This document shows positions 7,601 to 55,746 of a DNA stretch of 64,000 nucleotides, in pieces. The translations under genes were made by a program, and so were the position numbers. Origin of the DNA: Nostocales cyanobacterium HT-58-2. Lineage in GTDB: Bacteria; Cyanobacteriota; Cyanobacteriia; Cyanobacteriales; Nostocaceae. Positions within the stretch are counted from its first letter, which is position 1, and the number at the start of each line of letters is the position of its first letter. The stretch spans positions 3,855,001 to 3,919,000 of the forward strand of contig CP019636.1 of the NCBI GenBank assembly GCA_002163975.1. The letters run 5' to 3'. Under the pieces are notes generated by a model. The model ran no database searches. It was given only the letters and a program-made list of their open reading frames with translations, and was not told where the DNA came from.

Positions 7601-7724
7601 GAGTGAGACGAGAAGCTTCTGTACCCAGCGTACCATCAGGGGTAATTTGTGCATAGACTGGTGTGCTGGCAAGCATTATAAAGCAATATATTAACAACTT
7701 TGGAAAAGTTTCCGTCTGATTCAT
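4641..7724 (-). CDS. TpsA-like filamentous haemagglutinin-domain exoprotein 1
   Basis: A 1027-residue secreted protein. A signal peptide ends near VYA-QITPD. It is followed by the two-partner-secretion (haemagg_act) domain with HSFSQFNINDGQRVYF and the diagnostic NPNGI motif (NLFLMNPNGILFG). The bulk is a beta-helix built of Gly/Asn-rich repeats (GNGGDINI, GNAGNIFI, SLSLSG). The conserved C-terminal region carries QICPRSPNAKPL and FIITGRGSLPPNPLEP. Proteins of this kind are exported across the outer membrane by a TpsB partner and act as adhesins or surface layers; none of that is proven here. Unlike its five relatives it has two extra cysteines (GCPCE) in a mid-protein loop. The start is supported by the CTGATGAATCAG context shared with two of its paralogues. 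Confidence 0.88.
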   Translation of the reverse strand: MNQTETFPKLLIYCFIMLASTPVYAQITPDGTLGTEASRLTPNVFINGANADRIDGGAQRGGNLFHSFSQFNINDGQRVYFANPSGVQNIVSRVTGGQVSNILGTLGVDGNANLFLMNPNGILFGQNARLDVGGSFVGTTANAFRFGEQGLFSATNPETPPLLTIQPSALLFNQINNGAFIQNNSTASVGLDPTGSFNTVGLRVPDGRSLVLLGGEVSINSGGIVAFGGHIDIGGVKGTGSVGLNQNGDRFSLNFPSDLQRANVSLTDGAGFIVAGAGAGSSVTLTGDNISLSNNSSIEAGILDGLGAANTQAGDITLDATDVVNFASNSYISNYLDSGALGNSGNIIIKAKRLSLNQGSQIGTFNFGTGNTGNVVIAATDSVSLNGTSADGEFPSGIFANILSGAKGRGGNVSIQANSVAIKDGGLIRARTFGEGNAGRIEIQARDTVSLFGQGSSSIQNDVGLGGVGNSEGISINTDSLFLSDKAFITSNVDGRGNSGGVNIVARNLVSLDDSGELTRGGEPGTLILSRVNDRAVGNGGDINIKTDSLYASNSQITTSTFGEGNSGNVTIEAQDRVTLLRSTDIFTEVGCPCETESGIGGIGKGGDITIKTGSLLLDSGSNLRADTESRGKAGNIIVEARDSITFSGSSDEFTSGAFSEVEPEAVGQGGDIFITTGTLSLSGDQEINTRTQGQGDAGNIFIKANSISLAGPDVRIFSGASQEGRLPGTFGNGGDINITSGSLLVTDGAQVSATTEIRGLAGNITINASRLTLDNQGTIKSESVADADGGNIALNIREFLLMRHNSRISTNAGTAQQGGNGGNITINTPFIVSLPRENNDISANAFSGRGGNVNIRAQSIFGIQARPKPTGQSDITASSELGVQGQIDITQPEVQATQGLIELPYSVVDASNQIAQICPRSPNAKPLAEFIITGRGSLPPNPLEPMAGTPEFYRLATLDGELSTDTQMQERGETESFKTSKVVPAIVEAQGWVKTADGAIALVTYAPEATPSKLPTPSACVNHLQK

Positions 7725-7959
7725 CAGAAGTTGCCTATTGAGATATGTAAATATGTTTTATTAAAGCTATACATATCACTATTTCTCGCTCATCTCTGCA
7801 TATGTAATATCTATACATATAGCTAGAACAATAAGCTCATAACCCGCGTTTTTCAGAGCTAAGACTGCATAGGAGCAAATATATCCGGCTCTTCTTGTGA
7901 CTAAAATCATGACATGATTAGGAATTGGGAATTGGGAATAACGAATGTAAGAAGCGTGA

Positions 7960-15493: not shown

Positions 15494-15511
15494 CGCAGCA
15501 CTCCTCATCTT

Positions 15512-18500
15512 TTAGTGTCTCGATACCGGACATCCTATTGCCGCAGTATGAGTATACGGTGTGACTTGAGATGCAAAGGCAACTAGCATGATATTGCCGT
15601 CGCTATCTTTAACCCAACCTTGCGCTTCAACAATTTCAGTGACACCTTTGGAAGCTTTAAAACTCCCCGCGTCACCCTGTCCCCGCGTCAAAACGTCTCC
15701 AGAACCTTCCTCGTCCAGAGTTGCCAGCCGACTCAGTTCTGCTTTACCTGCCAATGGTTCTAGAGGATTCGGTTGTAAACTGCCGCGTCCGGTGATGATG
15801 AACTCACCCAAGGGTTTGGCATTGGGGCTTCTAGGACAGATTTGGGCAATTTGGGTAGTAGCGTCAACGACAGAGGAAGGTAGTTCGATGATTCCTTGGG
15901 TGCGTTGAATTTCAGGTTGATTAATGTCAATCTGTCCCTGCACTCCTAATTCTGAACTGGCAGTGATGTCACTTTGTGAGGTGGGGAAGGAAGCGGGAAC
16001 GATGCCGAACAGTGCATTGGTGTTGATGGTGATGTTACCGCCACGTCCTTGAAAGGCGTTGGCTGATATATCGCTGTTTTCTTTGGGAACTGCAATAATT
16101 GCTTTGGCGTTAATTGTGATGTTACCCCCGTTGCTGTCTACTTGAGGCGCTCCGGCAGTTGTAGAAATAAGGCTGCCTTTACGTAGCAGCAGAATATCAT
16201 CAACACTTAAGAATATATTACCTCCGCTTCTTGTTGTAGTTTCAGCAGAGATTTCTGAGCGATTATTTAGTTGTAAAGTCTCACCTTGGACTTGAATTTT
16301 TCCACTTTCGCCACTGCCAAAACTACTAACAGAAACGACAGCTCGATTGTTGAGGTCGAGTGCTCGCGAAGTCATAAAGATTGTGCCACCTGTACCCTGC
16401 CCGTTGGAAGTCACCCGACTGAGGATATTACTGTCGTCAACCGTTAGGCGATCGCCAGCATTGAGAGTGATAGCTCCAGCATCCCCTTGCCCAGCAGTTG
16501 AGGAAACTAATGCAGCCTCATTCCTCAGAGAAATCAAATCACGAGCATTCAGGGTAATATTCCCACCTTTACCAACTGCATTCTGACTCACACTGCTCGT
16601 AATATCTGCGTTGTCCAAGGAAATGCGATCGCGTGCCCGGACAATCACGCTACCAGCATCACCTTGTCCTTCGGTATTTGTCCTCAGTTCCGCATTATTT
16701 GAGAGCAAGAGTGAACCTGTAGTAATTTCAATATTCCCGCCTTTGCCAACAGTGTCTTTTCCTATCAAACCACTAGACGCTGCGCTAGCACCAAATGCGC
16801 CACTAGCAGTTCGCTGACTTGTTCCGTCAAATACCACGCGATCGCGAGCATTGATAATAATGTTACCTGCATTGCCACGTCCATTAGAGACTTCTGCTAA
16901 TAACTGAGCGCCATTTGTGACAAACAATGAACCCGTGTTGATTTCAATATTGCCACCATTGCCAACTGGTTGTTTCAAAATTCCAAGTTGTCCAACAGTA
17001 CTGAAGACTCCACTGGGATGAACATTGTCACCTTGCACAAATCCAATACTATCAACAGCAACTTGCAGTGGTCCAGAGCCATCAAAAGTCATTGTATCGC
17101 GGGCATTGAGGCTGATATTTCCAGCATCGCCTTGTCCAAAGGTGCTACTGTCAATCTGACTGCCCCCAGTGAGGAACAGAGAACCAGTCCTGATGTCAAT
17201 ATTTCCTCCGTTACCCTCTGCTCCAAGAATCACCTTGCTGGCAATACTGCTGTCATCTAAAGTAATAGTGTCACGGGCATTAATCGTGATATTACCTGCA
17301 TCCCCTTTACCACCTGTACTAGTTTGCAATTGTGCCTTATTAATGGAAAGTGAACCAGTATTAATCTCAATGTTGCCAGCCCTACCTACCGCTTTGGGGT
17401 ACAATACATTGTAAATACTCAACTTTGACTGATCGCTACGATTTACCAAAACACGATCACGAGCATTGATGATAACATTACCTGCATTGCCTTTACCAGA
17501 AGTACTGGCAACAATTTCTCCATCATTAGTGACAGATAATGAGTTAGTGTTAATCGTAATATTGCCACTGTTACCTTCTGCTCCAGGTTCCACTGTGCTA
17601 AAAATACCGTTAAAAACGTTGCTTGTCGTTGGATTAATCCTATCTAAATAAACTTCGCGAGCATTGATAGTAATGTTTCCAGAATCACCTTTTCCATAAG
17701 TACTAGCACTTAATTGAGCACTGTTGGTGAGAGAAAGGGAGCCAGTGGTCAGCTCAATGTTACCGCCCTTACCTTTACCTAAACGTTCCACATCACTCAA
17801 AATAAAACTGTTGCCATCTAAGGAGATGCGATCACGTGCTTGAACGATGACATTTCCTGCATTTCCCTGACCGCCTGTACTGGCAATAATTTTCGATCCA
17901 TCTGTAATATCGAGTGAGGCAGTGGAAATCTGAATATTACCGCCATTGCCTATACTAGGGAGAAATAGGAAAAATCCTGGAAAAACTGAGTTATCAATGA
18001 TACTTTGCTGGGCAAGTCGAAGAGTTCCAGTGGTATTGAGGATAATATCTCCCGCTTGAGTGTTTCGTGTCCCCCCAAATAAAATTCCTGCTCGTATATT
18101 ACTCCCTCCAACAATATCTAAATTACGAGCGTTGATCGTCACATTCCCGCCACCATCACTCCTCAGACTCCTCACATCAATTGTCGATTGATTGTTAAGT
18201 GATACGTCTGCACGTGGAAGATCTGAAGGAAAACTAAGACTACCATCAGCATTTAGTCCAACAGAACCCACGCCTTCTACTGCTCCAATCTCTACACGAC
18301 CTCCCAGCGCATACAACTCTCCCTCGTCCATCTGGACATTACCTCCAACCAAGAGCAAATTCTTTCCAAGAGGAACCGATAGGAATCCTTGGTTGGCGAT
18401 CGCCCCTGGATTGAGTTGATTAAACAGCAACGCTGAAGGATTCACCGTCAACAATGCTGGCGCTTCTGGATTCGTCGCACTAAACACACCCTGCTCGCCA

Positions 18501-18940
18501 AAGCGAAACGCACTTGCTGTCGTCCCTACAAAAGAACCACCCACATCCAATCGAGCATTGGGACCAAAGACAATTCCATTGGGATTGAGCAAAAACAGAT
18601 TCGCGTTGCCGATGTCAACTCCCAACGTTCCCAAAATATTCGAGGCTTGCCCACCTGTCACCCGTGTCAGAATATTTTGTACACCCGGATTGACAAAATA
18701 TACTCTTTGCCCATTACCCACATTAAACTGACTAAAACTGTGGAAAAGGTTGCCTCCCCGTTGAGCACCGCCAGAGATGCTGTCAGCCGCTGCACCCTTA
18801 ATTTGAACGTTGGGTGTGAGGCGCGAACTTTCTGTACCAAGGGTGTTATCCGGAGTAATTTGAGCGTGAGCAGTCGTGCTGATAAATAGGCTAAGGCTAC
18901 ATAGCACAGAGTATTCAAGCCAACTGTGTTTCTGATTCAT
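15512..18940 (-). CDS. TpsA-like filamentous haemagglutinin-domain exoprotein 3
   Basis: An 1142-residue protein with signal peptide (STTAHA-QITPDNT), secretion domain (GGAQRGGNLFHSFSQFNVG, NLFLLNPNGIVFGPN), beta-helix repeats, and the conserved C-terminal block (QICPRSPNAKPLGEF, final GCPVSRH). Its first roughly 170 codons and at least 70 nt upstream are almost identical to the gene at 19101-22913, so the two are recent duplicates that differ mainly in the repeat region. A small difference marks it: VDIGNAN in place of VDGSAN in the secretion domain. It sits upstream of exoprotein 2 in the same direction. Confidence 0.88.
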   Translation of the reverse strand: MNQKHSWLEYSVLCSLSLFISTTAHAQITPDNTLGTESSRLTPNVQIKGAAADSISGGAQRGGNLFHSFSQFNVGNGQRVYFVNPGVQNILTRVTGGQASNILGTLGVDIGNANLFLLNPNGIVFGPNARLDVGGSFVGTTASAFRFGEQGVFSATNPEAPALLTVNPSALLFNQLNPGAIANQGFLSVPLGKNLLLVGGNVQMDEGELYALGGRVEIGAVEGVGSVGLNADGSLSFPSDLPRADVSLNNQSTIDVRSLRSDGGGNVTINARNLDIVGGSNIRAGILFGGTRNTQAGDIILNTTGTLRLAQQSIIDNSVFPGFFLFLPSIGNGGNIQISTASLDITDGSKIIASTGGQGNAGNVIVQARDRISLDGNSFILSDVERLGKGKGGNIELTTGSLSLTNSAQLSASTYGKGDSGNITINAREVYLDRINPTTSNVFNGIFSTVEPGAEGNSGNITINTNSLSVTNDGEIVASTSGKGNAGNVIINARDRVLVNRSDQSKLSIYNVLYPKAVGRAGNIEINTGSLSINKAQLQTSTGGKGDAGNITINARDTITLDDSSIASKVILGAEGNGGNIDIRTGSLFLTGGSQIDSSTFGQGDAGNISLNARDTMTFDGSGPLQVAVDSIGFVQGDNVHPSGVFSTVGQLGILKQPVGNGGNIEINTGSLFVTNGAQLLAEVSNGRGNAGNIIINARDRVVFDGTSQRTASGAFGASAASSGLIGKDTVGKGGNIEITTGSLLLSNNAELRTNTEGQGDAGSVIVRARDRISLDNADITSSVSQNAVGKGGNITLNARDLISLRNEAALVSSTAGQGDAGAITLNAGDRLTVDDSNILSRVTSNGQGTGGTIFMTSRALDLNNRAVVSVSSFGSGESGKIQVQGETLQLNNRSEISAETTTRSGGNIFLSVDDILLLRKGSLISTTAGAPQVDSNGGNITINAKAIIAVPKENSDISANAFQGRGGNITINTNALFGIVPASFPTSQSDITASSELGVQGQIDINQPEIQRTQGIIELPSSVVDATTQIAQICPRSPNAKPLGEFIITGRGSLQPNPLEPLAGKAELSRLATLDEEGSGDVLTRGQGDAGSFKASKGVTEIVEAQGWVKDSDGNIMLVAFASQVTPYTHTAAIGCPVSRH

Positions 18941-19020
18941 CAGGAACTATCTTTAGTGATGGTAGGTGCTTTGTCTTGAAGCTATGTTCATGACTATTTC
19001 TGGTTATGCTCCACATATGC
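18941..19020 (-). repeat. Duplicated upstream region of exoprotein 3
   Basis: The sequence upstream of the ATG at 18940 is repeated almost base for base upstream of the ATG at 22913 (22914-22996), diverging only near CCACATATGCAG. The duplication therefore includes the leader and probably the promoter, not just the coding region. Confidence 0.85.
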
Positions 19021-19100
19021 AGCAGTCGTCAGGCGCTTGGGCAACAAGAGCAATATACTGACTAATAAGTATAGTTCGCAGAGTTACTATCGCATAAGTG

Positions 19101-22100
19101 TTACTGTTGTTGAGAGACAGGACATACCGCAGTTGTCGGGCGAGTAGATGGTGTAGCTTGGGGTGCAAAAGCAACAAGAGCGATCGCACCATCAGCAGTT
19201 TTCACCCAGCCTTGCGCTTCAACAATTTCAGTGATACTTGTGGAAGCTTTCAAACTCCCTGCTTCTGCGCGTCTCCCCGTCCCCGCGTCACCTCCGTCTA
19301 AAGTTGCCAGTTGACTCAGTTCTGCTTTACCTGCCAGTGGTTCTAGAGGATTGGGCGCTAAACTGCCGCGTCCGGTGATGATGAATTCGCCCAAGGGTTT
19401 GGCATTGGGGCTTCTGGGACAAATTTGGGCAATTTGGGTAGTGGCGTCAACCACAGATGAAGGTAGTTCGATGAGTCCAGAAGCGGGTTGGACATCGGGT
19501 TGCGTGAGGTTGATTTGTCCTGGGGTGCCGAGTTGGGAACTAGCGGTGATGTCGCTTTGTGAGGTGGGGAAGGACGCGGGAACAATGCCGAATACTCCAT
19601 TGGTGTTGATGGTAATGTTGCCCCCGCGTCCTTGAAAGGCGTTGGCTGATATGTCGCTGTTTTCTTTGGGAACTGCGACTATTGCATTTGCATTAATTGT
19701 GATGTTACCGCCATCGCCACCTTGTTGGGCAGTCCCTGCAGTGGCAGAGATGAGACTACCACGGCGTAGTAAGAGAAAATTGCTCGCTTGCAAATTGATA
19801 TTGCCGCCGTTTCCTGACGCAGATTCAGCGATGAATCTTCCGGTGTTGTCTAATCGAATTTGGGGTGCGGTAACTTCAATGTCCCCTGCATTTCCTGTGC
19901 TTTCAGAACGAACAAAAAAGCCACTGGCTGCTTCAAGATTTGCAACAACGTTGTTGCCGAATTTAGCAACTCGGTCATTGAAAGTTACATCCCTGGCATT
20001 GACAATCACCTGATCGGTAGCGTTAACTGTAATTTTACCTGCACGTCCATTACTAGAGGAGGTGGCAAGGAGTTGTCCTCCATTGATAGTTTCTACTAAT
20101 CGTGCATTCACTGTAATATTACCACCATTGCCATCATTTCTAGTTCCCGCATTGATCACGGCACCATCGGATACACGCAAGACACCAGTATTTATGGTCA
20201 GATCGCCACCTTTACCTGTGGAAGTGGTAAGTGTATCTGTAAATAAGGCACTAGAAAATCCTCTACTTAAACTGGTTCCAGAAACATTGACATAGTCTGT
20301 AGCATTAATTTGAATATTTCCAGCATCCCCACCTCCAAAGGTGCTAGCATCTACTTGAGCACCATTAGTGACAGAGAGTGAGCCTGTTGTTACATTAATA
20401 TCGCCCCCTTTGCCCACTGCTCTCGTACCCACCAAGCTCAAGATGTAACTGCTACTATCAATAGACACAGAATCTTTTGCTTGCACGAACACACTGCCTG
20501 CATCCCCCTTTCCATAGGTGCTGGAAGTCAGTCGTGCGCCATTAGTCAGAGAGAGCGAGTCAGTAGTGATGAGGATGTCCCCGCTCTTACCTTTACCTGT
20601 ATCTTCCACAATGCTGTAAACAGTGGTGTTATTTCCATTCAAAAAGACGCGACCAGCGTCAATAATCACACTGCCTGCATCCCCATCTCCAAAAGTGGTG
20701 GCATCCAGGAGACCACCATCAGTTAAAGACAACGAGTCTGAGGAAATGGTAATGTTTCCTCCTTTGCCACTTGCTCCCTGCCCCAAATAGCTGAAAATAC
20801 CACTAGAAAATCCGTTCTTTGCTCCAGCAATCGTCACCGCTCCTGTGACATTAACGTTGATATTTCCCGCCTGACCTTGTCCTGCGACCTGGGTGGAAGA
20901 TGCGTCACGAACAAAAGTTCCCAGTTGAGCACCATCGGTGAGGGACAGTGTTGCTGCATTGATGTTGACGTCGCCGCCTTTGCCCACACCTCCATTTTCC
21001 ACATTGCTGAAGATGAGACTGTTCCCAGTAGCAAACACAGAATCTTTTGCTTGCACCCACACACTGCCTGCATCCCCTTGTCCACTGGTGCTGGCAGATA
21101 GTTGAGCACCATCAGTTAAAGAAACTGAGCCGGATGTAACATTAATGTTTCCTCCTTTACCAATCGCCCCACTTCCCAAATAGCTGAGAATACCACTAGA
21201 AAATCCATTCTTCACCCTAGCAATCGTCACTGCTCCTGTGACATTAACGTTGACATTCCCCGCCTGACCTTGTCCTGCAACCTGGGTGGAAGATGCTTCA
21301 CGAACGCTGGTTGACAGTTGAGCGCCATCGGTGAGCGATAGTGTTGCTGCATTGATGTTGACGTCGCCACCTTTGCCAACACCCTGTGATTCCACATTGC
21401 TGAAGATGTAACTGTTACCAGCAGCAGACACAGAATTCTTTGCTTGCACCAACACGCTGCCTGCATCTCCTTTTCCACTGGTGCTGGCAGATAGTCGAGC
21501 ACCATCAGTTAAGGAAACTGAGCCGGATGTAACGTTAATGTTTCCTCCTTTACCAATCGCCCCACCTCCCAAATAGCTGAAAATACCACTATTTGCATTG
21601 TTTCCGCCAGCAATCGTCACTATTCCTGTGACATTAACGTTGACATTCCCCGCCTGACCTTGTCCTGCAACCTGGGTGGAAGATGCGTCACGAATACTGG
21701 TTGATAGTTGAGCGCCATCGTTGAGAGATAGTGTTGCGGCATTGATGTTGACGTCGCCGCCTTTGCCCACACCTCCATATTCTACATTGCTGAAGATGTA
21801 ACTGTTCCCAGCAGCAGACACAGAATCTTTTGCTTGCACAAACACACTACCTGCATCCCCTTTTCCGAGGGTGCTAGCAAAAACTCGAGCACCATCAGTT
21901 AAGGACAGGGAGTCAGCAGTGACATTAATATTCCCTCCTTTGCCCACTGCTTGCGGTTGCACAACATTGAAGACACTGCTCCCTATAACTTTGATTTCTC
22001 CTGTAGCATTGAGCCTAATATCTGCAGCAACAGCGCCAATTGACCCAAAACCTTCCGTAATACCAGCAAGTAAGCCACTTCCTTCCAAAATATCTAAATT

Positions 22101-22913
22101 ATTAGCGTTAACTGTAATACTCCCGCCACCACTTGCATCTACACGTACAATAGCTCCATTGGTCAGAAAAACATCTGCACGAGTTGCGTTATCAGGAAAA
22201 GTTAAGCTTAAATTATTGCCATCTACTTCAAGCCCCACTGTTCCACTTGATGCCAATCCCCCCAACTCTACTCGTCCACCGAAGGCTCCAATTCCACCTT
22301 GGTCTAAGCGAACGTCACCGCCTGCAAGTATTAAACTTTGACCATTAGGAACTTGCAACAACCCTTGGTTGGCGATCGCTCCTGGATTCATTTGATTAAA
22401 CAGCAACGCTGAAGGATTCACCGTCAACAATGGCGGCGCTTCCGGATTCGTCGCACTAAACACACCCTGTTCACCAAAACGAAACGCACTCGCTGTTGTC
22501 CCCACAAACGAACCACCTACATCCAATCGGGCATTGGGACCAAAGACAATTCCATTGGGATTGAGTAAAAATAGATTCGCACTACCATCAACGCCCAGTG
22601 TTCCCAAAATATTTGAGGCTTGCCCACCTGTCACCCGTGTCAGAATATTTTGTACGCCCGGATTGACAAAATACACTCTTTGCCCGTTACCCACATTGAA
22701 CTGACTAAAACTGTGAAACAGATTGCCTCCCCGTTGAGCGCCACCAGAGATACTGTCAGCCGCTGCACCTTTAATTTGGACGTTGGGTGTGAGGCGTGAA
22801 CTTTCTGTACCAAGGGTGTTATCCGGAGTAATTTGAGCGTTAGCAGTCGTGCTGATAAGCAGGGTGAGGCTACATAGCACAGAGTATTCAAGCCAACTGT
22901 GTTTCTGATTCAT
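19101..22913 (-). CDS. TpsA-like filamentous haemagglutinin-domain exoprotein 4
   Basis: A 1270-residue protein. Signal peptide (STTANA-QITPDNT) and secretion domain with NLFLLNPNGIVFGPN. The central beta-helix contains three nearly identical tandem modules of about 130 residues, seen as a repeated DNA landmark (CCTGCRACCTGGGTGG) at 20881, 21274 and 21664. Each module carries QAGNVNVNVTG, IFSYLG, GKGGDVNINAATLSL and DGAQLST. The C-terminal block (QICPRSPNAKPLGEF, final VCPVSQQQ) matches the other paralogues. It is the near-duplicate of exoprotein 3 at the N-terminus and shares its middle region with exoprotein 5 on the other strand. Confidence 0.88.
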   Translation of the reverse strand: MNQKHSWLEYSVLCSLTLLISTTANAQITPDNTLGTESSRLTPNVQIKGAAADSISGGAQRGGNLFHSFSQFNVGNGQRVYFVNPGVQNILTRVTGGQASNILGTLGVDGSANLFLLNPNGIVFGPNARLDVGGSFVGTTASAFRFGEQGVFSATNPEAPPLLTVNPSALLFNQMNPGAIANQGLLQVPNGQSLILAGGDVRLDQGGIGAFGGRVELGGLASSGTVGLEVDGNNLSLTFPDNATRADVFLTNGAIVRVDASGGGSITVNANNLDILEGSGLLAGITEGFGSIGAVAADIRLNATGEIKVIGSSVFNVVQPQAVGKGGNINVTADSLSLTDGARVFASTLGKGDAGSVFVQAKDSVSAAGNSYIFSNVEYGGVGKGGDVNINAATLSLNDGAQLSTSIRDASSTQVAGQGQAGNVNVNVTGIVTIAGGNNANSGIFSYLGGGAIGKGGNINVTSGSVSLTDGARLSASTSGKGDAGSVLVQAKNSVSAAGNSYIFSNVESQGVGKGGDVNINAATLSLTDGAQLSTSVREASSTQVAGQGQAGNVNVNVTGAVTIARVKNGFSSGILSYLGSGAIGKGGNINVTSGSVSLTDGAQLSASTSGQGDAGSVWVQAKDSVFATGNSLIFSNVENGGVGKGGDVNINAATLSLTDGAQLGTFVRDASSTQVAGQGQAGNINVNVTGAVTIAGAKNGFSSGIFSYLGQGASGKGGNITISSDSLSLTDGGLLDATTFGDGDAGSVIIDAGRVFLNGNNTTVYSIVEDTGKGKSGDILITTDSLSLTNGARLTSSTYGKGDAGSVFVQAKDSVSIDSSSYILSLVGTRAVGKGGDINVTTGSLSVTNGAQVDASTFGGGDAGNIQINATDYVNVSGTSLSRGFSSALFTDTLTTSTGKGGDLTINTGVLRVSDGAVINAGTRNDGNGGNITVNARLVETINGGQLLATSSSNGRAGKITVNATDQVIVNARDVTFNDRVAKFGNNVVANLEAASGFFVRSESTGNAGDIEVTAPQIRLDNTGRFIAESASGNGGNINLQASNFLLLRRGSLISATAGTAQQGGDGGNITINANAIVAVPKENSDISANAFQGRGGNITINTNGVFGIVPASFPTSQSDITASSQLGTPGQINLTQPDVQPASGLIELPSSVVDATTQIAQICPRSPNAKPLGEFIITGRGSLAPNPLEPLAGKAELSQLATLDGGDAGTGRRAEAGSLKASTSITEIVEAQGWVKTADGAIALVAFAPQATPSTRPTTAVCPVSQQQ

Positions 22914-23110
22914 CAGGAACTATCTTTAGTGATGGTAGGTGCTTTGTCTTGAAGCTATGTTCATGACTATTTCTGACTCTGCTCCACATATGCAGTATTT
23001 ATCAGGCACTTGGGCAACAAGAGCAATCTTACCATCAGTAGAATTGTTGCATGTGTTTCATAAAAATGTCTCAACAATCACCTGAGGACAACGGATGTAT
23101 GAGAACGCTT

Positions 23111-24131: not shown

Positions 24132-24887
24132 TTAATTTATTTGCGTTGTCCCGGTAGCTTGCTTGGTGCAAAAATCCGCGACATAGGCTTGCCGTTGCTT
24201 AACAAAAGACGGAGATGGATTTTCTACCTCGAACAGGGTTTGCAAAGCATCTGACCAAGCATTGGATGTATCATTTTTATTATTTTTGTGTTTGATTTCG
24301 TAATTGAGAAAGTAATCTGCTTTTTTTTGTGCAATCTCTTCTTGGGAAGCTCTTGCTGATTGTAATTTTTGCTCTAAGGTTTGTAAATCTGCTTGAATTT
24401 TATCGCGTTCCTCTGCAGGCATGATCTGAAATGTTGTCCACTGATTGCGATCGGAGCTTGAGGATTCAGCTCCTAACAATTGCCATTGATAAAGTTTGCC
24501 TGGTTGTAGGGGTTCTTTGCCGTTGTAAGCTATTTTTTGCTCTGTGGCGTTGAGAGGTTGTGTCCACAAGACGGCTTGAGTTTGGCGATCGCGCACAGTA
24601 ATCTGAGCGCCTTTGCCTTGCCAGACAAATAGTGGGCGATCGCTCCAGACAACGTATGTTTCAATCAAACCAGGTGAGATGGGGCAAATTCCGCTGCGTG
24701 CGCCTAAACGGTGACGGGGACGGCGCTGCCAAAAGAAAGCAAGCCCAGATGCAAATGATTGCTGGGCAACGAGTTGAGAAGATTTCGCAACTGGGGCAGT
24801 GTGGGCGTTGCTGATTGCAGCGGTACCGACGAATAAGGGGATAATTGCATAGCTAAACACAAACTTGCAGCGTTTAAGATTAAGCAT
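24132..24887 (-). CDS. Exported protein of the CHAT-sigma operon, unknown function
   Basis: A 251-residue protein read from the ATG at 24887 (MLNLKRCKF), which has AAGGAGAG 8 nt upstream and overlaps the stop of the CHAT gene (ATGCTTAA). The N-terminus is a signal peptide (FSYAIIPLFVGTAAISNAHTA). The next part has RPRHRLGARSGICPISPG and a beta-rich domain (IETYVVWSDRPLFVW, ITVRDRQTQAVLWTQPL, YQWQLLG) resembling an immunoglobulin or fibronectin-like fold. A charged coiled coil follows (about 165-200, DKIQADLQTLEQKLQSARAS). I do not recognise the family. Small exported proteins of this layout often accompany cyanobacterial CHAT genes. Two mature cysteines are visible (GICPIS and ADFCTK). Confidence 0.7.
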   Translation of the reverse strand: MLNLKRCKFVFSYAIIPLFVGTAAISNAHTAPVAKSSQLVAQQSFASGLAFFWQRRPRHRLGARSGICPISPGLIETYVVWSDRPLFVWQGKGAQITVRDRQTQAVLWTQPLNATEQKIAYNGKEPLQPGKLYQWQLLGAESSSSDRNQWTTFQIMPAEERDKIQADLQTLEQKLQSARASQEEIAQKKADYFLNYEIKHKNNKNDTSNAWSDALQTLFEVENPSPSFVKQRQAYVADFCTKQATGTTQIN

Positions 24888-27306
24888 ATTTCTCTCTCCT
24901 TGTAGCAGGTAGAACGTAAGCCAAAAACACGAACGATGGCAAAAGCCAGGGGAGCAAAACCGAAGCTGAAATATAAAGCTGTAACCCAACAAGTCCATAA
25001 ACAACTGTTGCTCCCGTGGAACTGGCAATGATTCGCAGGCGTTGGGTTGGACTCCAACGAGACTGCTGGCGTTTGATGAGCAAGACAGTTATTTTACCGA
25101 GGATGACGGCAACTCCAATCATCCAGGCGTCGGGGATGGGGATCACAAAGTGTCGCGTCAGAAAATGGTGAGTCATGTAAGCCAAAGATTCACCCCCTGT
25201 CATCTGAGATTGCTGCGTCCAATAGTTCATCGCCGCAGGGGCATCAAAGCGATCCGCATGTCCTGGTGCGATTCCCAAGCGTTCGTCGCTTCCCACCGCA
25301 ATCAGCACAACCTGCTCAGAAAGCAGTGGAAATTTGTTCGCATCGCCCTCTTCCAGCAATCTCCAAGCGGGAATTCGCTGATAGACGCGATAGGGGGGAA
25401 GCGAGAAATCAACTAGAGGCTGTAACCCCAAGGGCGGTTGCCAGTTTAAGGGAGCAGGTAAATCGCGGATTTGTGGAGCCTTATAATCAATTGCATCGAG
25501 CAACTGGGTTCGTAAGTTGGTCGTACGACTGGTATGTGGCTTTGGTAGTGCAGGCAATTGCTGACGAGATGTCTGTACAAGCGACATCAAATAGGCTAAT
25601 GGACAAGCTTCACGACAATCTTGGTCTGGAAGTGGGATTTCCACAAAGTGAGGATCAACCACATCAATATATCCTTGCACTGTCCAATGTTCACTTGCAA
25701 TAGCAGTGGTTTTACTTATGCTCAACTCACGATCAGAGTCCAAAATCCCAGCAATAATCAACCACATATTTTGGTCAACTGCTTGTCGTACGGCTTTTCC
25801 TAAATCTTTATCCCCAGATGGAGGGTCTTTTTGCGGTGTATCAAGTACGACATCTAATCCAACTACGGAAGCATTTAATTTTTGTAGGCGTTCGATTAAC
25901 TTTGCTATGTAGCTGCGATTAATCGGATTGAGCTGGGAAATGCTACCACGATAAATGGATTCAGTATCAATTTGTACGAGTGCAACTGGGGGAGCTTCCT
26001 CAGACGGAACTTGAGCAGTTGAGTTGCGGTAGATTGACTGGACGAATGTGCGCCCGTTTAGGAGAAGCTCTGCAACAGGGGGAATGCAACTGAGGGCAAT
26101 ACTAGCACAGAGTGCGATCGCCTCAATTCGAGTTGGTAAAAACTTATATAAGTGCTGTTTCCAGTCAACTGGGGTTATACGGAATAGAGAAGCTCCTGGA
26201 TGACAAAACAATGAAGGTACCAAGTAAGCAGAAGGATAAGTGTGGCTCTTTTCCATCCGCAGAGATTGACGCGCTGCCATCATCGACTCGTACACATCCA
26301 GGTGTTTCGCCAACCCTTGTAGGAATCGTACCAAAAATTCCTGCGCGACACGGTTGTGGATCGGTTCGCGCATCACTACAACTTGACTAAAACCAATATC
26401 AATCAAGGCATCTGCGATACTCAATCCACTACAAGAATTAAAAATGGCAACTTGTAGTCCAAGTTTTTTGGCTGCGATCAGTTGTGATTTGATTTCGCTA
26501 ATAGAAATTGACACACCAGGAGCAATCCCCAACTCGCCTCCTGTCATCTCCGTTTCGTTGCTGTGCCCAGCAAAAAAGAGTATGTCCCAACCTTGCTGAT
26601 CAGTAATTGCGTTAGTAATTTGTTGGATTGCTTGCTCTGGTGTTTGATCAGGTTGCCAACCAACAAACTGGATATCTGCAATGCGGAGGAGCGATCGCAC
26701 AGCTTCTCGATCTGCTTCAAAATTTAACCCAGTATCATCGCCTAAAATTGCTAAAATGCGAGCACGTCGCTGTTTTGGCTTATTATATTGAGTACCACTT
26801 TCCGTGGCAATATTCAGAGGAGCGCGAATAATCCGAATTGTTCCAGTCGCGGCGAACTCTGTGCCAAGTTCCCAAGCTTCCCAAGGAAAACGGTCTAATT
26901 CAATAGGCGCACAGGTGAGAAAGAGTTGCACTGCTTCAGTTGTTTCTGGATTCGCCTTGACAAGTTCCTGACTTGCTTGGGCAATTTGTAAGCGAATGTC
27001 GTACAGTTCGGCACTGCGCAACCAACGATGAAACTCATACGTGAATTTCGTTTCTGCTTTGACAAGTTCCGCGTGCCAGTCCACAATTAAAGTTGCAATT
27101 CCACCACCAACGGGTCGTCCCCGCATATGTTCGGACTGATAAAAACTTAAGTACGCCCGTTGCCATTCTTCGTAAAGCTGAGTTAGGGCTGTTGGATAAT
27201 TGACTTGTACAGTCAGATTTTGTCCTTGTCCCCAAGACAACTCGAATAAACAGATTTGCTCAACTTTTTGAACTTTAAGATGAAAAAGATGGGAATGAAG
27301 TTTCAT
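24880..27306 (-). CDS. CHAT (caspase-fold) plus CHASE2 membrane protein
   Basis: An 808-residue protein. The N-terminal half contains a CHAT domain, a caspase-like peptidase fold (about 100-380), with a plausible catalytic dyad His248 (ILFFAGHSNE) and Cys292 (AIFNSCSGL). The second half is a CHASE2 extracytoplasmic sensor (about 430-720; PVALVQIDTESIY, ASVVGLDVVLDTP) flanked by a hydrophobic segment near 400 and by closing transmembrane helices at the C-terminus (MIGVAVILGKITVLLI, VVYGLVGLQLYISASVLL). The layout suggests an outside-sensed signal controlling an internal protease; the target is unknown. It is the third gene of a minus-strand operon after the sigma-like and DUF1822 genes, with a 49-nt gap, and overlaps the exported protein by 8 nt. 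Confidence 0.87.
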   Translation of the reverse strand: MKLHSHLFHLKVQKVEQICLFELSWGQGQNLTVQVNYPTALTQLYEEWQRAYLSFYQSEHMRGRPVGGGIATLIVDWHAELVKAETKFTYEFHRWLRSAELYDIRLQIAQASQELVKANPETTEAVQLFLTCAPIELDRFPWEAWELGTEFAATGTIRIIRAPLNIATESGTQYNKPKQRRARILAILGDDTGLNFEADREAVRSLLRIADIQFVGWQPDQTPEQAIQQITNAITDQQGWDILFFAGHSNETEMTGGELGIAPGVSISISEIKSQLIAAKKLGLQVAIFNSCSGLSIADALIDIGFSQVVVMREPIHNRVAQEFLVRFLQGLAKHLDVYESMMAARQSLRMEKSHTYPSAYLVPSLFCHPGASLFRITPVDWKQHLYKFLPTRIEAIALCASIALSCIPPVAELLLNGRTFVQSIYRNSTAQVPSEEAPPVALVQIDTESIYRGSISQLNPINRSYIAKLIERLQKLNASVVGLDVVLDTPQKDPPSGDKDLGKAVRQAVDQNMWLIIAGILDSDRELSISKTTAIASEHWTVQGYIDVVDPHFVEIPLPDQDCREACPLAYLMSLVQTSRQQLPALPKPHTSRTTNLRTQLLDAIDYKAPQIRDLPAPLNWQPPLGLQPLVDFSLPPYRVYQRIPAWRLLEEGDANKFPLLSEQVVLIAVGSDERLGIAPGHADRFDAPAAMNYWTQQSQMTGGESLAYMTHHFLTRHFVIPIPDAWMIGVAVILGKITVLLIKRQQSRWSPTQRLRIIASSTGATVVYGLVGLQLYISASVLLPWLLPSFVFLAYVLPATRREKYA

Positions 27307-27355
27307 ATAAGAGTTAGCCGTTAGTAATTAAGGAAGCGAGGAGCAGAGAATTTTC

Positions 27356-28651
27356 TCAAGTACTTATTTCCAGTTCAAAACCGAAAGGTGGGATTTCAAA
27401 AATCGCTTCATTGGCACTCACTGTCACCCAAAATCGTTCGCCCCAGTTGCCAATGACTTGAGCATAAAGTACGCCCTGACTTGTGTCATCCTGGGACTGT
27501 TCAAATAACTTCTGCGTCTCATCTCTAATCTCCAGATTGAGGTGCATTGATGTCTGGGTTCGCTGTTGTGGACTTAGAGCAATCAGTAACATCCATTCCG
27601 GACAATCTAATTCTTCCGATATCACCCACGTCACTGCGTAGAGTCGCAAACTTCCCTGTTCCCAGGACAAGTCACGGTAAGCGCCTCGCGCTGTTGGAGG
27701 AATATGGACGCCTTGCTGTTCCAAAGCTGTACGAACCTTATAAAATTCTTCTTGCAATGAACGCAGGGCAGACGGTGCCAAGGATGGCATGAGCATCCAT
27801 CCTAATTCCTGAGCAACTGTATCAAGCTGGTTACGTAACCACAAACCAACGTTAATGAGGGGTTGAGAACGTGGGGGAGTCGAGACTTCGTACACCCAGT
27901 TCACAAGTTCAGGGTTTTGCAACAGCGTCTTGCCTTCTTCAACTGTAAGCAATTCCCAAAGCGGCTTGCTTGGAAGTTGAGATTGCAGCGTTGTCAGTTT
28001 CTGCCGCAGTGCTGCGTCACTCTCTTGTTGTCTGAATGCAGTTGTAGGTAAAACTATAGCATTTGGTTCGAGGCAACGCAGATTTAGCAAAAGGGCATTA
28101 GGATCGGGATTAAACCAGGTCAGTGGTAGTGTATACGTCCAATCTTGTTCCGGTTGGAGGGATGCAGCTGCTTGGTATCGCTGATACTGCTGGTAGTTTA
28201 AAAAACCGGATACCGCAACCTGCTGTTGCTCCTCGTCAACTTGGATCGGCACATAAAAATGAGCGGCAAAATCAGGGATATCAAAAACCGCACTTGGGAA
28301 ACTCACTTGATTGTCATCCAGACTACTAGAAGCCACAATGCACAGTTTGAAGGAACCAACTTGAAGGTTACACACCGCAGCTATCAGATTTGCATAAGAC
28401 GGTTGCCAAATCAAGGCGTCTTTGCTGTGCACCCTCAAATCTGGAGCGCGATCGCTAAGCCATTGCTCAAATCCTAATGCAGCCAAGGCAGCCAAGTAAA
28501 CTTGCCAACGTTGATCCAGTAGGTGAATTGATTGACTTAGTCGCGCAGCTGTTTGTAATTGCTCTGGCAATAGCTCAGTTTGTGTATCATTGAGCGATCG
28601 CCAATCGAGCAAGTCTGTCAAATCTGGCATTGATGTAGGTTGATCTATCAT
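27356..28651 (-). CDS. DUF1822 family protein
   Basis: A 431-residue soluble protein matching cyanobacterial DUF1822 proteins: an N-terminal helical segment (AARLSQSIHLLDQRWQVYL, ALGFEQWLSDRAPDL), then a beta-rich part (SFKLCIVASSSLDD, AHFYVPIQVDEEQQQVAVSG). The C-terminus returns to an all-beta domain (LRLYAVTWVISE, MLLIALSPQQRT, VLYAQVIGNWGERFWVTVS). The function is unknown; the family is found almost only in cyanobacteria and usually beside CHAT and sigma-like genes, as here. Its ATG overlaps the stop of the sigma-like gene as ATGA, so the two are translationally coupled, which supports a shared role. Confidence 0.85.
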   Translation of the reverse strand: MIDQPTSMPDLTDLLDWRSLNDTQTELLPEQLQTAARLSQSIHLLDQRWQVYLAALAALGFEQWLSDRAPDLRVHSKDALIWQPSYANLIAAVCNLQVGSFKLCIVASSSLDDNQVSFPSAVFDIPDFAAHFYVPIQVDEEQQQVAVSGFLNYQQYQRYQAAASLQPEQDWTYTLPLTWFNPDPNALLLNLRCLEPNAIVLPTTAFRQQESDAALRQKLTTLQSQLPSKPLWELLTVEEGKTLLQNPELVNWVYEVSTPPRSQPLINVGLWLRNQLDTVAQELGWMLMPSLAPSALRSLQEEFYKVRTALEQQGVHIPPTARGAYRDLSWEQGSLRLYAVTWVISEELDCPEWMLLIALSPQQRTQTSMHLNLEIRDETQKLFEQSQDDTSQGVLYAQVIGNWGERFWVTVSANEAIFEIPPFGFELEIST

Positions 28652-30054
28652 AAGTTAGGATTCCTTGAATCGAGATAACTGCAGATGCGGCGCGCCAAGA
28701 GACCGCGTAGGGGTTGATTGCGAACTGGATTTTTGGCTTCGGACTCGGCTTCCTGAATAATGCTCGTAATTTGTTCATCTAGAATGACTTCCACTTGCTG
28801 ATCTAAACTTTGTAAGCGTTCGGAATTAGCATACATCTTGGCGCACTCAACAATGCGCGATCGCAACATCACAAGCAATCGTTGACGAATATCAGCACGT
28901 AAATCATTAAGTTTTAATAAACGAGTCACTTCATATTGTTTTTGAAATCCAATTTGCGGTGCAATTTGGCTCATAGATTGACCTTGGCAATGAAAAAGAT
29001 GTAAGGCAGTTATAAATAATTGTTCAACTGATGAACGCTTACGTTGTAACTTAGAAATCGAATCGCTAATAACTTGCAAAATCGCCTGATCTAAACATTC
29101 AATAAATTGATTTTGATAATATTTCAGAAATTCAATTTTTTCTTCATCATCTTGATCGACCTGTGCGCGGTCTACAAAAGGTTGAATTTCAGGTTGATCA
29201 AAAGAAACAGTAGGAACCGTTCCTCCTTGGGCTGAGATTCGATATCGCCGTAATTTAGATGCGATCGCGTTTAACTGGCGTAAGATAGCTTCAGGGTTGA
29301 GCGTGCGACTGGTGCAAGCTTTCAGGTCATCAGCGATCCGAACTAACTGCTCAGACGTGGGTGGCTGACAAGGTTGTTTCGTCTTCGCAATGCGCTGTTT
29401 CAGTCGGTCTTCACGATAGACTGCATGAAAGCTTTGTAAAAGTTCACAAGTCTGTTGAATTTCAATTTCTGTTAACTGATACACTTGCGCGAGAATTTGC
29501 TGTAATCGCTTCGAGGTTGTATCATTCAACAGAGCCCAATCGCTGACTATATAAACACCGTGCTGTAATAAAAACCGCTTAAGTTCTGGATGTTGTCGAA
29601 CATAGCGTGTGACCCATGTATTGAGTGTTCCCTTTGCGGGGTCAAAGGTTTGCAAAATGGTCATTGCTAAAGAACGATAGGGAACACTTTGCTGCGAATT
29701 TGATGAGAGCAATCCCTCATCATCTAAGACAAAAGGCAGTAAGTCTTCGTATGTAAAACCGTGACGACTGCCAAACTTAACACCCAAATCCAGGCACGCC
29801 TGATCTATTTGGTGCGAGATGTAGCAGCGTAAACAGCTTTCAGCCAAAAAGCGATGATCGCTCTTGATGTCTCCACCCTGCTGCATTTGCTGCCAAAGCT
29901 GTCGCTGAATCGTTGTATCAGCGACGTTAACCTGTTGCGTCCATTCAGGAAATTGGTTTTGGAAATAGGTTTTAGCAGCGATCATTGTTTCTACCCGACG
30001 CGAGCCAGTCGAATTTAACTTGACGAGTTGCCAGTATTTTGATATGGAAACCAC
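28648..30054 (-). CDS. Sigma-70-like protein of the CHAT/DUF1822 operon
   Basis: A 468-residue protein of the cyanobacterial sigma-70-like group that accompanies CHAT operons. Visible traits: SYRSLAMTILQTFDPAKGTL and NTWVTRYVRQHPEL in the first half, a long helical middle, and a C-terminal helix-turn-helix-like segment (QSMSQIAPQIGFQKQYEV). It lacks the easily readable region 2 of standard sigma factors, so DNA or polymerase binding is an inference. The frame opens with GTG at 30054; an ATG at 29985 (MIAAKTYF) is an alternative, and neither has a strong ribosome-binding site. It is first in the operon, so it could regulate the whole set, including itself. Confidence 0.72.
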   Translation of the reverse strand: MVSISKYWQLVKLNSTGSRRVETMIAAKTYFQNQFPEWTQQVNVADTTIQRQLWQQMQQGGDIKSDHRFLAESCLRCYISHQIDQACLDLGVKFGSRHGFTYEDLLPFVLDDEGLLSSNSQQSVPYRSLAMTILQTFDPAKGTLNTWVTRYVRQHPELKRFLLQHGVYIVSDWALLNDTTSKRLQQILAQVYQLTEIEIQQTCELLQSFHAVYREDRLKQRIAKTKQPCQPPTSEQLVRIADDLKACTSRTLNPEAILRQLNAIASKLRRYRISAQGGTVPTVSFDQPEIQPFVDRAQVDQDDEEKIEFLKYYQNQFIECLDQAILQVISDSISKLQRKRSSVEQLFITALHLFHCQGQSMSQIAPQIGFQKQYEVTRLLKLNDLRADIRQRLLVMLRSRIVECAKMYANSERLQSLDQQVEVILDEQITSIIQEAESEAKNPVRNQPLRGLLARRICSYLDSRNPNL

Positions 30055-30377
30055 AGTGTTTTACTTATCCAAAACCAGTCACTCTCAATTTTTTCATCTC
30101 CTCAATTTAAAGTCACTATTTGTTCAGTAATGTTACTTATACTTCTTTCTAGTTCTGGCTGAGTCAACTCATGCAAAAAACTCCTTTCCCATTGGAAATA
30201 CCAATTTCTGTGGAGTGGACAGTGCCTACCCTAAGCTTTTAGGTATATAACAATGAGAAAGAAGCCGTAATATCGTGTCGATTGAAGACTTATCATTAAG
30301 ACCGCAAGGAAGCAGGAAGCAGGGGAAGAAAGAGTTTTCTGGTGTTCCCACTAATAATTAAGAAATACAAAATCTTA
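30055..30377. other. Gene-free interval upstream of the sigma-like operon
   Basis: This 323-nt stretch lies between the sigma-like gene start and the end of the subtilisin gene, both on the minus strand. I see no open frame, repeat or clear hairpin. It probably holds the promoter of the sigma-like operon, but no confident -35/-10 pair can be read. Confidence 0.5.
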
Positions 30378-31811
30378 TTAAGCCAAACTGGTAGTGGTGA
30401 TAATTTGACGCACTTGATTGGGGCTCAAATTGGGATTAGCGCTCAACATCAATGCTGCGACACCTGAAACATAAGGTGTAGCCATCGAAGTGCCATTGAG
30501 ATAGCCATATTTATTACCAGGAATTGTTGAGTAGATATCAACGCCAGGAGCAACCACATAATTTATTTTACTATTGGAACCTGCTTTGTTTGAGAAATTA
30601 GCCATAGATCCATCTCGTTCAATGGCACCCACTGCAATTCCCCAATCAGTAGCTAATGCTGCTGGATACTTGGGTTGAGCAAGACCATCATTCCCCGCAG
30701 CCATGACAACAATTGCACCCCGTTGCGTTGCATATTGGATAGCCTGTCCAACCTCATTGGGTAAGCCATCTTTGAAGGTCAAGCTAAGATTAATTACATC
30801 TGCACCATTATTAGCTGCATAGTAAATCCCCTGGGCAATATTATTGGCAGTACCACCTTGTTCACCCAATACTTTGATTGGCATAATTTGAGAATTGTAT
30901 GCAACACCTGTTGTCCCAAATTCATTTCTCTCAGCAGCAATAATTCCTGCAACATGAGTTCCATGACTGTCATAATCCATCGGATTATTGTTGTTGCCTA
31001 CAAAATTCCATCCAATAACATCATCAATATATCCGTTCCGGTCATCGTCAAGACCATTCCCAAAAATTTCGCCTCGGTTGATCCAAATATTGTCATTTAA
31101 ATCTGCGTGCGAATAGTCCACGCCACTATCAACCACAGCCACAACCATATTCTTACCTGTGTATCCTTTTGCCCACACTTCCGGTGCTTGAATTGCATCA
31201 AGCCCCCAATTGTATCCACCCACATTAGAAACATTAGCAAAAGGTGATTTCCCAATTGCTCCTGCTACTGCTGCAGCTGCATTCACAAGCCCATAGCCAA
31301 ATACCTTACTAAATGTCTTTGATTGTGAGGTGGCTACCTGTGGCGTTGAAACCTTTTCTGCACGCAACTCATTTGTTTCTATTGCTGTTGCAAAAGAGTT
31401 TGCCTGTGTGAGAGCATCATTTTCTTGAAAAGAGAATGTAGTTTGGATATCAATGCCAAATTCACTAGTGTCATCAGCAATAATTTGACCTGTAATGTCA
31501 TCAATGATTTGTGAAGAAGTAACAACCTGGGCAGAATTAGGATTGTAAGAAACATCACTAGCAATCAAACTCAACCAGTCATCGTCTTTGTAGACATATT
31601 GACCGTTTAGAGAGTCATTATCTGTGATATCTAAATAATCAGAAAGACTGTAAATTTCATGAGAAATAGATTGTGATTTTCCAAGATAAGAGTTATTGCG
31701 GAAATTGATTAGAAGATTATTAGAATCGAATGAATCCGCAATCGATATTGTTAAAGTCCCAGATGAAATCTCTAAAAATGCACTACCAGTATCTATTGGA
31801 GGGTTAAGCAT
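30378..31811 (-). CDS. Subtilisin-family (S8) serine protease
   Basis: A 477-residue protease with a full catalytic set: Asp in VAVVDSGVDYSHADL, His in DSHGTHVAGI, the oxyanion Asn in VMAAGNDG and Ser in NGTSMATPYVSG. The calcium-dependent S8 look (GNGLDDDRNGYIDDVIGWNF) is typical of cyanobacterial enzymes. No signal peptide is evident; the first 180 residues (ISSGTLTISIADSF, NNLLINFRNNSYLG) look like a beta-rich prodomain or export module, so secretion by another route is possible. It follows the MinD-like gene by 88 nt on the same strand. It might mature surface proteins from this island, but that is inference from position. Confidence 0.9.
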   Translation of the reverse strand: MLNPPIDTGSAFLEISSGTLTISIADSFDSNNLLINFRNNSYLGKSQSISHEIYSLSDYLDITDNDSLNGQYVYKDDDWLSLIASDVSYNPNSAQVVTSSQIIDDITGQIIADDTSEFGIDIQTTFSFQENDALTQANSFATAIETNELRAEKVSTPQVATSQSKTFSKVFGYGLVNAAAAVAGAIGKSPFANVSNVGGYNWGLDAIQAPEVWAKGYTGKNMVVAVVDSGVDYSHADLNDNIWINRGEIFGNGLDDDRNGYIDDVIGWNFVGNNNNPMDYDSHGTHVAGIIAAERNEFGTTGVAYNSQIMPIKVLGEQGGTANNIAQGIYYAANNGADVINLSLTFKDGLPNEVGQAIQYATQRGAIVVMAAGNDGLAQPKYPAALATDWGIAVGAIERDGSMANFSNKAGSNSKINYVVAPGVDIYSTIPGNKYGYLNGTSMATPYVSGVAALMLSANPNLSPNQVRQIITTTSLA

Positions 31812-31899
31812 AGCTTTGATATTTCATATTTTTCTGAGCTATGTTATTCACTATTTCTCAACCCAAAAGACTTATGCATATTGATGAAAACTTATTTTG

Positions 31900-39026: not shown

Positions 39027-39156
39027 TTTATTTGCATAAGTCCTGTTTTGCCAGAAATAGTCTAATTTCAGCAATCATTAATCCATTTTTTGGAATGGTT
39101 ACCTAAGCAACAATTCTGTCCATATCAATTAATGACCAACTTTAAAGGAGAAAATC

Positions 39157-39447
39157 ATGTCTAATGAGCTAGATGTAAACCGTACTCCTGTTGAACTATC
39201 TCAAAAGGAATTAGAAGAAGTGGCAGGTGGAATTGATATCTTTTTATCTGGATCAATATTTGAAAAAAATGATTTGTTTGCAAGCCAGCAAACAGGTTCA
39301 AATTTAACTGGTGCTGGGTCAAATTCTGTTCTCAATTCTTCTCACACTTTTTCTTCTGCGTTTCAATTTATTGGTTTGGGTTTAGAGTCTTTCAGTGATG
39401 TTGTAAAGGTTTTCAGAGGCTTATCCAGACTTTTTGGTAGAAGATAA
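39157..39447 (+). CDS. Divergent double-glycine peptide precursor (sixth)
   Basis: A 96-residue precursor with AAAGGAG before the ATG. The leader (25 residues) ends EELEEVAGG-like as LEEVAGG and keeps PVELSQKELEE, matching the LSEQELDTVAGG leaders of the array, so the same C39 peptidase should cut it. The 71-residue core (IDIFLSGSIFEKND onward) is otherwise unrelated: Ser/Asn-rich in the middle and ending in a cationic amphipathic segment (DVVKVFRGLSRLFGRR). No cysteine is present. It opens a likely operon with the tandem cNMP-binding-like protein (50 nt) and the HlyD adaptor. A different role from the array peptides, such as a membrane-active partner, is possible. Confidence 0.82.
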   Translation: MSNELDVNRTPVELSQKELEEVAGGIDIFLSGSIFEKNDLFASQQTGSNLTGAGSNSVLNSSHTFSSAFQFIGLGLESFSDVVKVFRGLSRLFGRR

Positions 39448-55476: not shown

Positions 55477-55478
55477 AT

Positions 55479-55550: not shown

Positions 55551-55746
55551 AAACCAGAGAAACTTTGAATTGGTTGATAGTGATTAGTATATTTACAACT
55601 CTACCTTTGGGTCATCATCTATTAGTTATAGTTCCTAATTTTTCCCACTTCGCCTACTCCCCCCTTACCCCATTTCTCCATCTTCCTATCTCTTCAATTG
55701 TCCATCTCCCTATCCCTCCACTTCTCCCTTTTTCTACTTCCTTTAC

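Follow-up and report, generated by a model that had tools for sequence, protein, structure and literature searches.

We analysed a stretch of 64,000 nucleotides from Nostocales cyanobacterium HT-58-2 (contig CP019636.1, positions 3,855,001 to 3,919,000; hereafter the window), whose genome measures 7.9 Mb, and focused on a set of four adjacent genes on the minus strand. In their own reading direction, these genes encode a sigma-like protein (28648..30054; 468 aa, GTG start), a DUF1822 protein (27356..28651; 431 aa; PF08852, 8e-48), a membrane protein that combines a CHAT and a CHASE2 domain (CHAT-CHASE2; 24880..27306; 808 aa) and an exported protein (EXP; 24132..24887; 251 aa). An earlier prediction, made from the sequence alone (hereafter the original prediction), had already described this four-gene set, and when we re-derived the coordinates, the 4-nt overlap (ATGA), the 8-nt overlap (ATGCTTAA) and the 49-nt gap between DUF1822 and CHAT-CHASE2 were all exactly as described. 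The unit seems to reach further than these four genes, to two-partner-secretion and other export genes with common promoter-like sites, which had been overlooked.

Both domains of the CHAT-CHASE2 protein were above the Pfam cut-offs (CHAT, 4e-11, residues 101-356; CHASE2, 3e-21, residues 431-736), and Pfam gave no TPR match in the window protein. The family carries a conserved N-terminal stretch of about 100 residues, while a simple hydropathy scan placed a transmembrane segment (TM) ahead of CHASE2 (394-412) and several hydrophobic segments after it (719-799). The His/Cys dyad lay exactly where it had been placed and was found in all aligned sequences of the named-genome loci described below (H248 and C292, 81 out of 81). 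In another set of loci C292 was present in 34 out of 34 sequences and H248 in 33 out of 34, the sole exception being a decayed copy (L070). Loss of the catalytic residues across orthologues, named in the original prediction as grounds for refutation, was therefore not seen, and the invariance of the dyad in 81 out of 81 sequences suggests that catalysis is needed.

The sigma-like protein was assigned mainly through profile matches. Its family profile matched a paralogue at another place in the genome (L079) that carries PF04545 (E 2e-9), and profile positions ~317-381 matched proteins of ~190-230 aa that occur in 41 genomes, all from a single distant family; we fetched three of these proteins and scanned two with Pfam, and both contained PF04545 (2.8e-9 and 1.5e-9). 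Judged by this profile link, sigma region 4 is present. A sequence search of solved structures with the same profile returned helix-turn-helix proteins (0.005) and SigF (0.05), and no sequence match to sigma region 2 was found in the protein. The AlphaFold2 model had a pLDDT of 85.5, with a low-confidence linker at 283-301. In a fold search separate from the Foldseek search considered below, all 50 rows listed were sigma-factor or transcription-initiation entries (chain identity taken from the titles). Residues 14-166 of the model aligned on sigma regions 1.2-2 with a best Z of 7.5. Where the fit was good, rmsd was 3.3-4.2 across ~100 residues; it was much larger in the rows that aligned both halves of the model. 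As modelled, the protein likely contains region 2 as well, and we infer that it has sigma activity.

The model of the window DUF1822 protein (pLDDT 87) was mostly well ordered; it began with an alpha/beta N-domain, continued with a helical part and ended in a beta-sandwich. DUF1822 is termed a TPR protein in passages of Kaur et al. 2021 (PMC8195603); we rejected this label for the window subfamily, which is the one modelled, given the alpha/beta and beta-sandwich architecture and the lack of a TPR match at E<=1. Sequence search of solved structures gave chance-level matches for DUF1822 (best 0.024), and its fold matches, namely nuclease D212 for the N-domain (borderline, Z 8.0) and widespread beta-sandwiches, were not used to assign a function.

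EXP has a signal-like segment at 7-25 (hydropathy scan) and a cysteine, C68, that was invariant in 24 sequences. Its matches to Pfam were weak (best 0.046), as was an NCBIfam match to the PspA coiled coil (0.012); NCBIfam returned nothing at E<=1 for the sigma-like, DUF1822 and CHAT-CHASE2 proteins. In the sequence search of solved structures, EXP matched an alpha-rhamnosidase (E 8e-4). The window EXP had no match to PF06051 (DUF928) at E<=1, and the EXP family profile matched one of the five DUF928 proteins of the genome, that of L080 (E 2.8e-6). On account of this match and of the same place beside CHAT, EXP is probably a divergent relative of DUF928.

The window genome contains six DUF1822 genes. 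All of the five places elsewhere hold CHAT genes, each with a DUF928 gene (PF06051) adjoining a CHAT gene; the Pfam check for CHASE2 covered L079 only. Sigma region 4 was found in the sigma-position proteins of L078, L079 and L080, the sigma-position protein of L082 was of the window type, and none was identified in L081. Based on these paralogous places and on the profile matches to L079 and L080, the window set appears to be a diverged form of a more common sigma/DUF1822/CHAT/DUF928 cassette. Many loci had a secreted TPR-CHAT gene between DUF1822 and CHAT or close by. A secreted-looking TPR-CHAT gene lay between DUF1822 and CHAT-CHASE2 in L042, L043, L048 and L050 (Pfam), and L044 had a similar long, putatively TPR-bearing open reading frame (ORF) between DUF1822 and CHAT.

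We surveyed 386 cyanobacterial genomes and, in addition, the best 80 of 421 loci from named genomes. The closest named relatives among the matches listed were two Brasilonema genomes (83 % identity), and Calothrix strains such as PCC 7103 (L103) and PCC 7716 (L100) also carry the set. A CHAT-CHASE2 match of some kind (E<=0.001) was present in 112 of the 386 genomes, and a full-length orthologue of the window type (E<=1e-136) in 29. All 29 of these also encoded a full-length sigma-like protein (E<=1e-121), which was found, in a more distant full-length form, in 9 of the 357 genomes without a full-length window-type CHAT-CHASE2. Regarding the named loci, 71 of the 80 had 3.3 kb of upstream DNA, 79 were testable for EXP and 70 for all four genes. 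The sigma-like and DUF1822 genes were both present on the same strand in 53 of the 71, EXP was present in 67 of the 79, and all four genes occurred together in 50 of the 70 (accepting the sigma-like gene on either side). The EXP/CHAT overlap was exactly 8 nt in 41 of the 67 loci with EXP. This association of genes is far beyond chance, and EXP is a regular fourth part of the set.

Among the named loci, CHAT-CHASE2 stood without near partners in Okeania, Hydrocoleum, Phormidium and Kastovskya, among others, and such losses of partner genes are real. In one genome with such a CHAT-CHASE2 (G062) the sigma-like gene sits on a different contig. The order was rearranged to DUF1822-CHAT-EXP-sigma in L126, L131 and L041, with linkage kept. 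We also observed two tandem EXP copies ahead of two-partner-secretion genes (L107:11477-13336) and a DUF1822 gene (L045:5646-8434) interrupted by a transposase-like ORF at 6373-7665.

A fused form of two of the parts was found in small genomes. We searched a candidate fused protein against 251 genomes of one picocyanobacterial family and recovered the whole protein in 8 of them, the query's own included, with the fusion gene directly after a sigma-like gene in all eight. Its N-part matched the profile of the DUF1822 N-domain (E 1.7e-10, residues 9-172) and was followed by a hydrophobic segment (~183-212, above threshold in 7 of the 8) and an EXP domain. The latter matched the EXP of unfused relatives within this family (E 4e-32), which in turn matched the window's EXP family (E 6.5e-12); the direct match between the fusion EXP domain and the window's EXP family reached only E 3.5e-4 with a probability of 37 %. 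The C-domain of DUF1822 was missing from the fusion, together with CHAT: none of the eight fusion genomes (1.0-2.0 Mb; two of the assemblies are only 53 and 67 % complete) gave a CHAT-CHASE2 match, whereas all nine unfused relatives searched in parallel did. A secreted TPR-CHAT gene was present within the fetched locus in 7 of the 8 fusion cases. In 12 unfused loci of the same family the order was sigma-DUF1822-CHAT, followed by EXP in 10 and by a contig end in 2.

The fusion directly unites a pair of proteins whose connection across the membrane would otherwise depend on CHAT-CHASE2. A sigma gene followed by a gene for a protein with a cytosolic domain, one TM and a periplasmic domain is the arrangement usually seen for sigma factors with membrane anti-sigma partners. 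The occurrence of a DUF1822-N::TM::EXP fusion beside the sigma-like gene singles out DUF1822 as the candidate regulator of the sigma-like factor.

Ahead of the sigma-like gene we detected a promoter-like element, TGCATNAG-N11-CAGAAATA. The upstream regions of 50 sigma-like genes were strongly enriched in common gapped words (27 vs at most 7 in shuffles), although related sequences share ancestry. With a matrix trained on 35 of these upstream sites, six sites in the window scored 19.6 to 34.9, and the best of 1.68 million shuffled positions on both strands scored 15.7. The site of the sigma-like gene itself (30150..30175, minus strand, 95 nt before the gene) scored 30.4. The other five preceded two genes for two-partner-secretion exoproteins (TPS), a subtilase gene, an ABC exporter gene and a 96-aa ORF. 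Specifically, the sites at 22968..22994 and 18995..19021 (both minus strand) lay each 54 nt before a TPS gene (19101..22913, PF05860 5e-55; 15512..18940, PF05860 1e-51; both minus strand), the second of which is followed after 3 nt by a further TPS gene (10682..15508, minus strand, PF05860 2e-50). The site at 31852..31878 lay 40 nt before the subtilase gene (30378..31811, S8, PF00082 1e-63), and the one at 4642..4668 lay 109 nt before the ABC exporter gene (1611..4532, PF00005 4e-34), all on the minus strand. On the plus strand, the site at 39033..39059 lay 97 nt before the 96-aa ORF (39157..39447), which had no Pfam match and contains a stretch that we take, from its sequence, to be Gly-Gly leader-like. 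A weaker copy of the element with 2 mismatches (7780..7806, minus strand) lay 55 nt before a fourth TPS gene (4641..7724, minus strand, PF05860 2e-53).

A strict pattern of the element occurred 6 times in the window, vs one occurrence in 300 shuffled windows, and 10 times in the whole genome, vs 0 for a reversed control. A start codon followed 35-109 nt after 9 of the 10 genome sites, and the genes behind these nine were four TPS genes, the sigma-like gene, the subtilase, the exporter, the small ORF and an ORF that we presume to be histidine-kinase-like; the tenth site had no ORF of 60 aa nearby. In the named loci we counted, among genes of at least 200 aa, those with a site (score >=16) just upstream: 40 out of 49 sigma-like genes (most of them training sites), 4 out of 7 subtilase, 8 out of 29 TPS, 6 out of 46 TPR-CHAT, 4 out of 78 CHAT, 2 out of 58 DUF1822 and 0 out of 69 EXP genes. 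Independently of the motif, 10 of the 15 intact TPS genes (one more match, a broken one, was left out) were located no more than 20 kb from a DUF1822 gene, vs a mean of 0.47 in circular shifts, 41 out of 20000 of which reached 10. The element would be the promoter that the sigma-like factor recognises.

A scan that allowed two mismatches was discarded as too noisy (76 sites vs 17 in the control; 13 of the 76 were one repeated sequence). Two tandem copies of the strict element were observed in a genome without a sigma-like gene (G068:C1:2250932-2250987). In the picocyanobacterial loci, the gapped-word counts showed no clear rise over shuffles. By eye, another pair, TTGTTC..TGATTCCA, was seen in about 7 of 17 picocyanobacterial sigma-like upstream regions (L168, L195, L196, L200, L201, L202 and L205), and is perhaps the picocyanobacterial counterpart of the element.

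Our favoured overall reading, to which we assign a probability of about 0.45, is a switch for secretion that acts across the envelope through CHAT, DUF1822 and the sigma-like factor. DUF1822, as a putative anti-sigma protein in the cytosol, would hold the sigma-like protein in check. CHAT-CHASE2 would be the membrane receptor, and its CHASE2 domain and the exported, DUF928-like EXP would read a periplasmic signal. The N-terminal, caspase-fold CHAT domain would then act on cytosolic DUF1822, with cleavage as the likeliest means. Once released, the sigma factor would drive its own operon and the genes for the large secreted TPS exoproteins of the cell surface, the subtilase, the exporter and the small peptide. 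The proposal builds on the observed gene set and its linkage, the conserved dyad, the homology of the parts, the fusion and the common element, from which we infer proteolysis, its substrate and the signal sensed. The chain of outside sensing, protease and transcription put forward in the original prediction is still the best-supported model; that prediction had named DUF1822 or the sigma-like protein as the point of control, and the fusion favours DUF1822 as the regulator. A more specific formulation is a CRISPR-independent switch from CHAT to sigma across the envelope, in which CHASE2 and EXP would sense, CHAT would cut DUF1822 and sigma would turn on two-partner secretion, reduced to sigma and a fused anti-sigma/sensor in some small-genome picocyanobacteria; this we put forward tentatively, at somewhat less than even odds.

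Several results weigh against the secretion switch. Pfam assigned no family at E<=1 to the window sigma-like protein, Foldseek gave no match at E<=0.001 for its model, and a Z of ~7 is middling for a helical protein; no known anti-sigma fold was found among the fold matches of DUF1822. A sigma-like gene, DUF1822 or both were not linked in 18 of the 71 named loci for which upstream DNA was available, and the fusion, being without CHAT, is silent on cutting. As for the element, three of the four strict TPS sites have the same flank and may therefore be one duplicated promoter, 30 of the 103 sites in the named loci were not ahead of a typed gene, and only 9 of the 27 sigma-like genes in the first set of loci scored above the best shuffle. 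The strict element was present in 3 of the 15 sigma-positive and 2 of the 19 sigma-negative genomes of the family. Since this comparison over 34 family genomes did not discriminate, we claim the element only for the window genome and the loci shown.

That last comparison, in which the strict element does not track the presence of the sigma-like gene, also fits a reading in which a different regulator binds the element, or the element is an ordinary promoter, and the TPS genes merely happen to be neighbours. The element can also be read, by eye, as TTGCAT-N17-AAATAT, and the TPS genes are close by anyway. Against this stand the sites (score >=16) before 40 of the 49 sigma-like genes, most of them training sites, with almost none before the inner operon genes EXP and DUF1822, and two TPS sites of the genome that lie outside the window, ~390 kb and 14 kb away; we regard this reading as somewhat unlikely. 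It is also conceivable that CHAT-CHASE2 leaves DUF1822 uncut and relays its signal through a conformational change or through binding, or that its target is a different protein, for example the sigma-like protein, cleaved in its disordered linker (283-301). As the fused form manages without CHAT-CHASE2, control of DUF1822 is possible in the absence of this protein, and the low-confidence linker lies in the sigma-like model, DUF1822 being mostly well ordered. The invariant dyad speaks for a need for catalysis, and we consider DUF1822 unlikely to go uncut in this way.

In other systems, CHAT and caspase-fold proteases have a role in defence. An immunity or cell-death device, in which a stimulus leads to caspase autoactivation and sigma and DUF1822 mount a response against the invader, is the published prediction for such an architecture in the passages of Kaur et al. 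(PMC8195603) concerned, and Csx29 likewise acts in defence according to passages of PMC10028731. In our data the four proteins had no PADLOC match at E<=1, the exported fourth part was conserved in the named loci (67 of 79), the genes behind the element were export genes, and the reduced form has been kept in genomes of 1.0-2.0 Mb. We thus find a defence role quite improbable, and the leaning of the original prediction towards defence finds no support in the PADLOC result or in the export genes linked to the set.

Other features of the window were noted in passing. Between the EXP and TPS genes (23258-23913, minus strand) lies a gene for a PIN domain (PF13470, 7e-25), with a small ORF as its partner in a toxin-antitoxin-like arrangement. 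A gene with FGE-sulfatase and DinB domains adjoins a class II glutamine amidotransferase gene (61798-63883, minus strand), a pair that resembles EgtB/EgtC of ergothioneine synthesis. Finally, ARAGORN called a tRNA with a two-letter anticodon (55478-55551, minus strand).

The original prediction knew of no experimentally assigned role for the set. The set is not without an assignment in print: its association had been predicted, without experiment, by Kaur et al. 2021, whose pertinent passages link a CHASE2/caspase protein (EACC2-caspase), an ECF sigma factor and DUF1822 (PMC8195603); with its core predicted there, the set is not new as such. In the texts covered by the literature search, it was treated by Kaur et al. 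alone. The main text of PMC8195603 lacks the words DUF928, two-partner, hemagglutinin and periplasm, and CHAT as a word is absent from that of a 2024 survey on the sigma factors of cyanobacteria (PMC11119718). EXP as a fourth part, the DUF1822 fold, the fusion and the promoter-like element go beyond the passages of PMC8195603 concerned.

If our reading is true, a role would be found for two unknown families, DUF1822 and DUF928, and for a cyanobacterial CHAT family, and CHAT-to-sigma signalling would be a general device beyond CRISPR. The genes that would be under the switch are named, so that it would be directly testable, and the fused form of the small genomes would offer a two-gene minimal version for study.

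We compared the window set with three known or predicted systems. It resembles the neighbourhoods described in passages of PMC8195603 in having a caspase-fold domain with a C-terminal CHASE2, an adjoining DUF1822 gene and a linked sigma gene, and differs from that account by the exported DUF928-like part, two-partner secretion, the promoter-like element and the fusion. That account also places an EACC2 domain ahead of the caspase domain; what the window family has at its N-terminus is the conserved stretch of about 100 residues. The locus of Craspase, of type III-E CRISPR, likewise encodes a CHAT protease together with a sigma factor and an inhibitor of it: according to passages of PMC10028731, Csx29 cuts Csx30, the inhibitor of CASP-sigma, and a logic of inhibitor cutting is what we propose here. 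Csx29 is a TPR-CHAT protein with an RNA-guided complex, whereas the window CHAT is fused to a membrane CHASE2 and its cutting would follow by analogy. No sequence link between DUF1822 and Csx30 was found in the searches made, and Csx30 was not among the DUF1822 fold rows listed, which excludes nothing. The membrane anti-sigma pairs RseA/DegS-RpoE and RsiW, discussed in passages of PMC10028731, likewise carry an envelope signal to a sigma factor, and the fusion resembles them with its cytosolic domain, one TM and periplasmic domain; they involve other protease families, whereas the window version has a separate CHAT-CHASE2 receptor. The module is real, conserved and partly known, and the fusion, the exported partner and the common element make it distinct.

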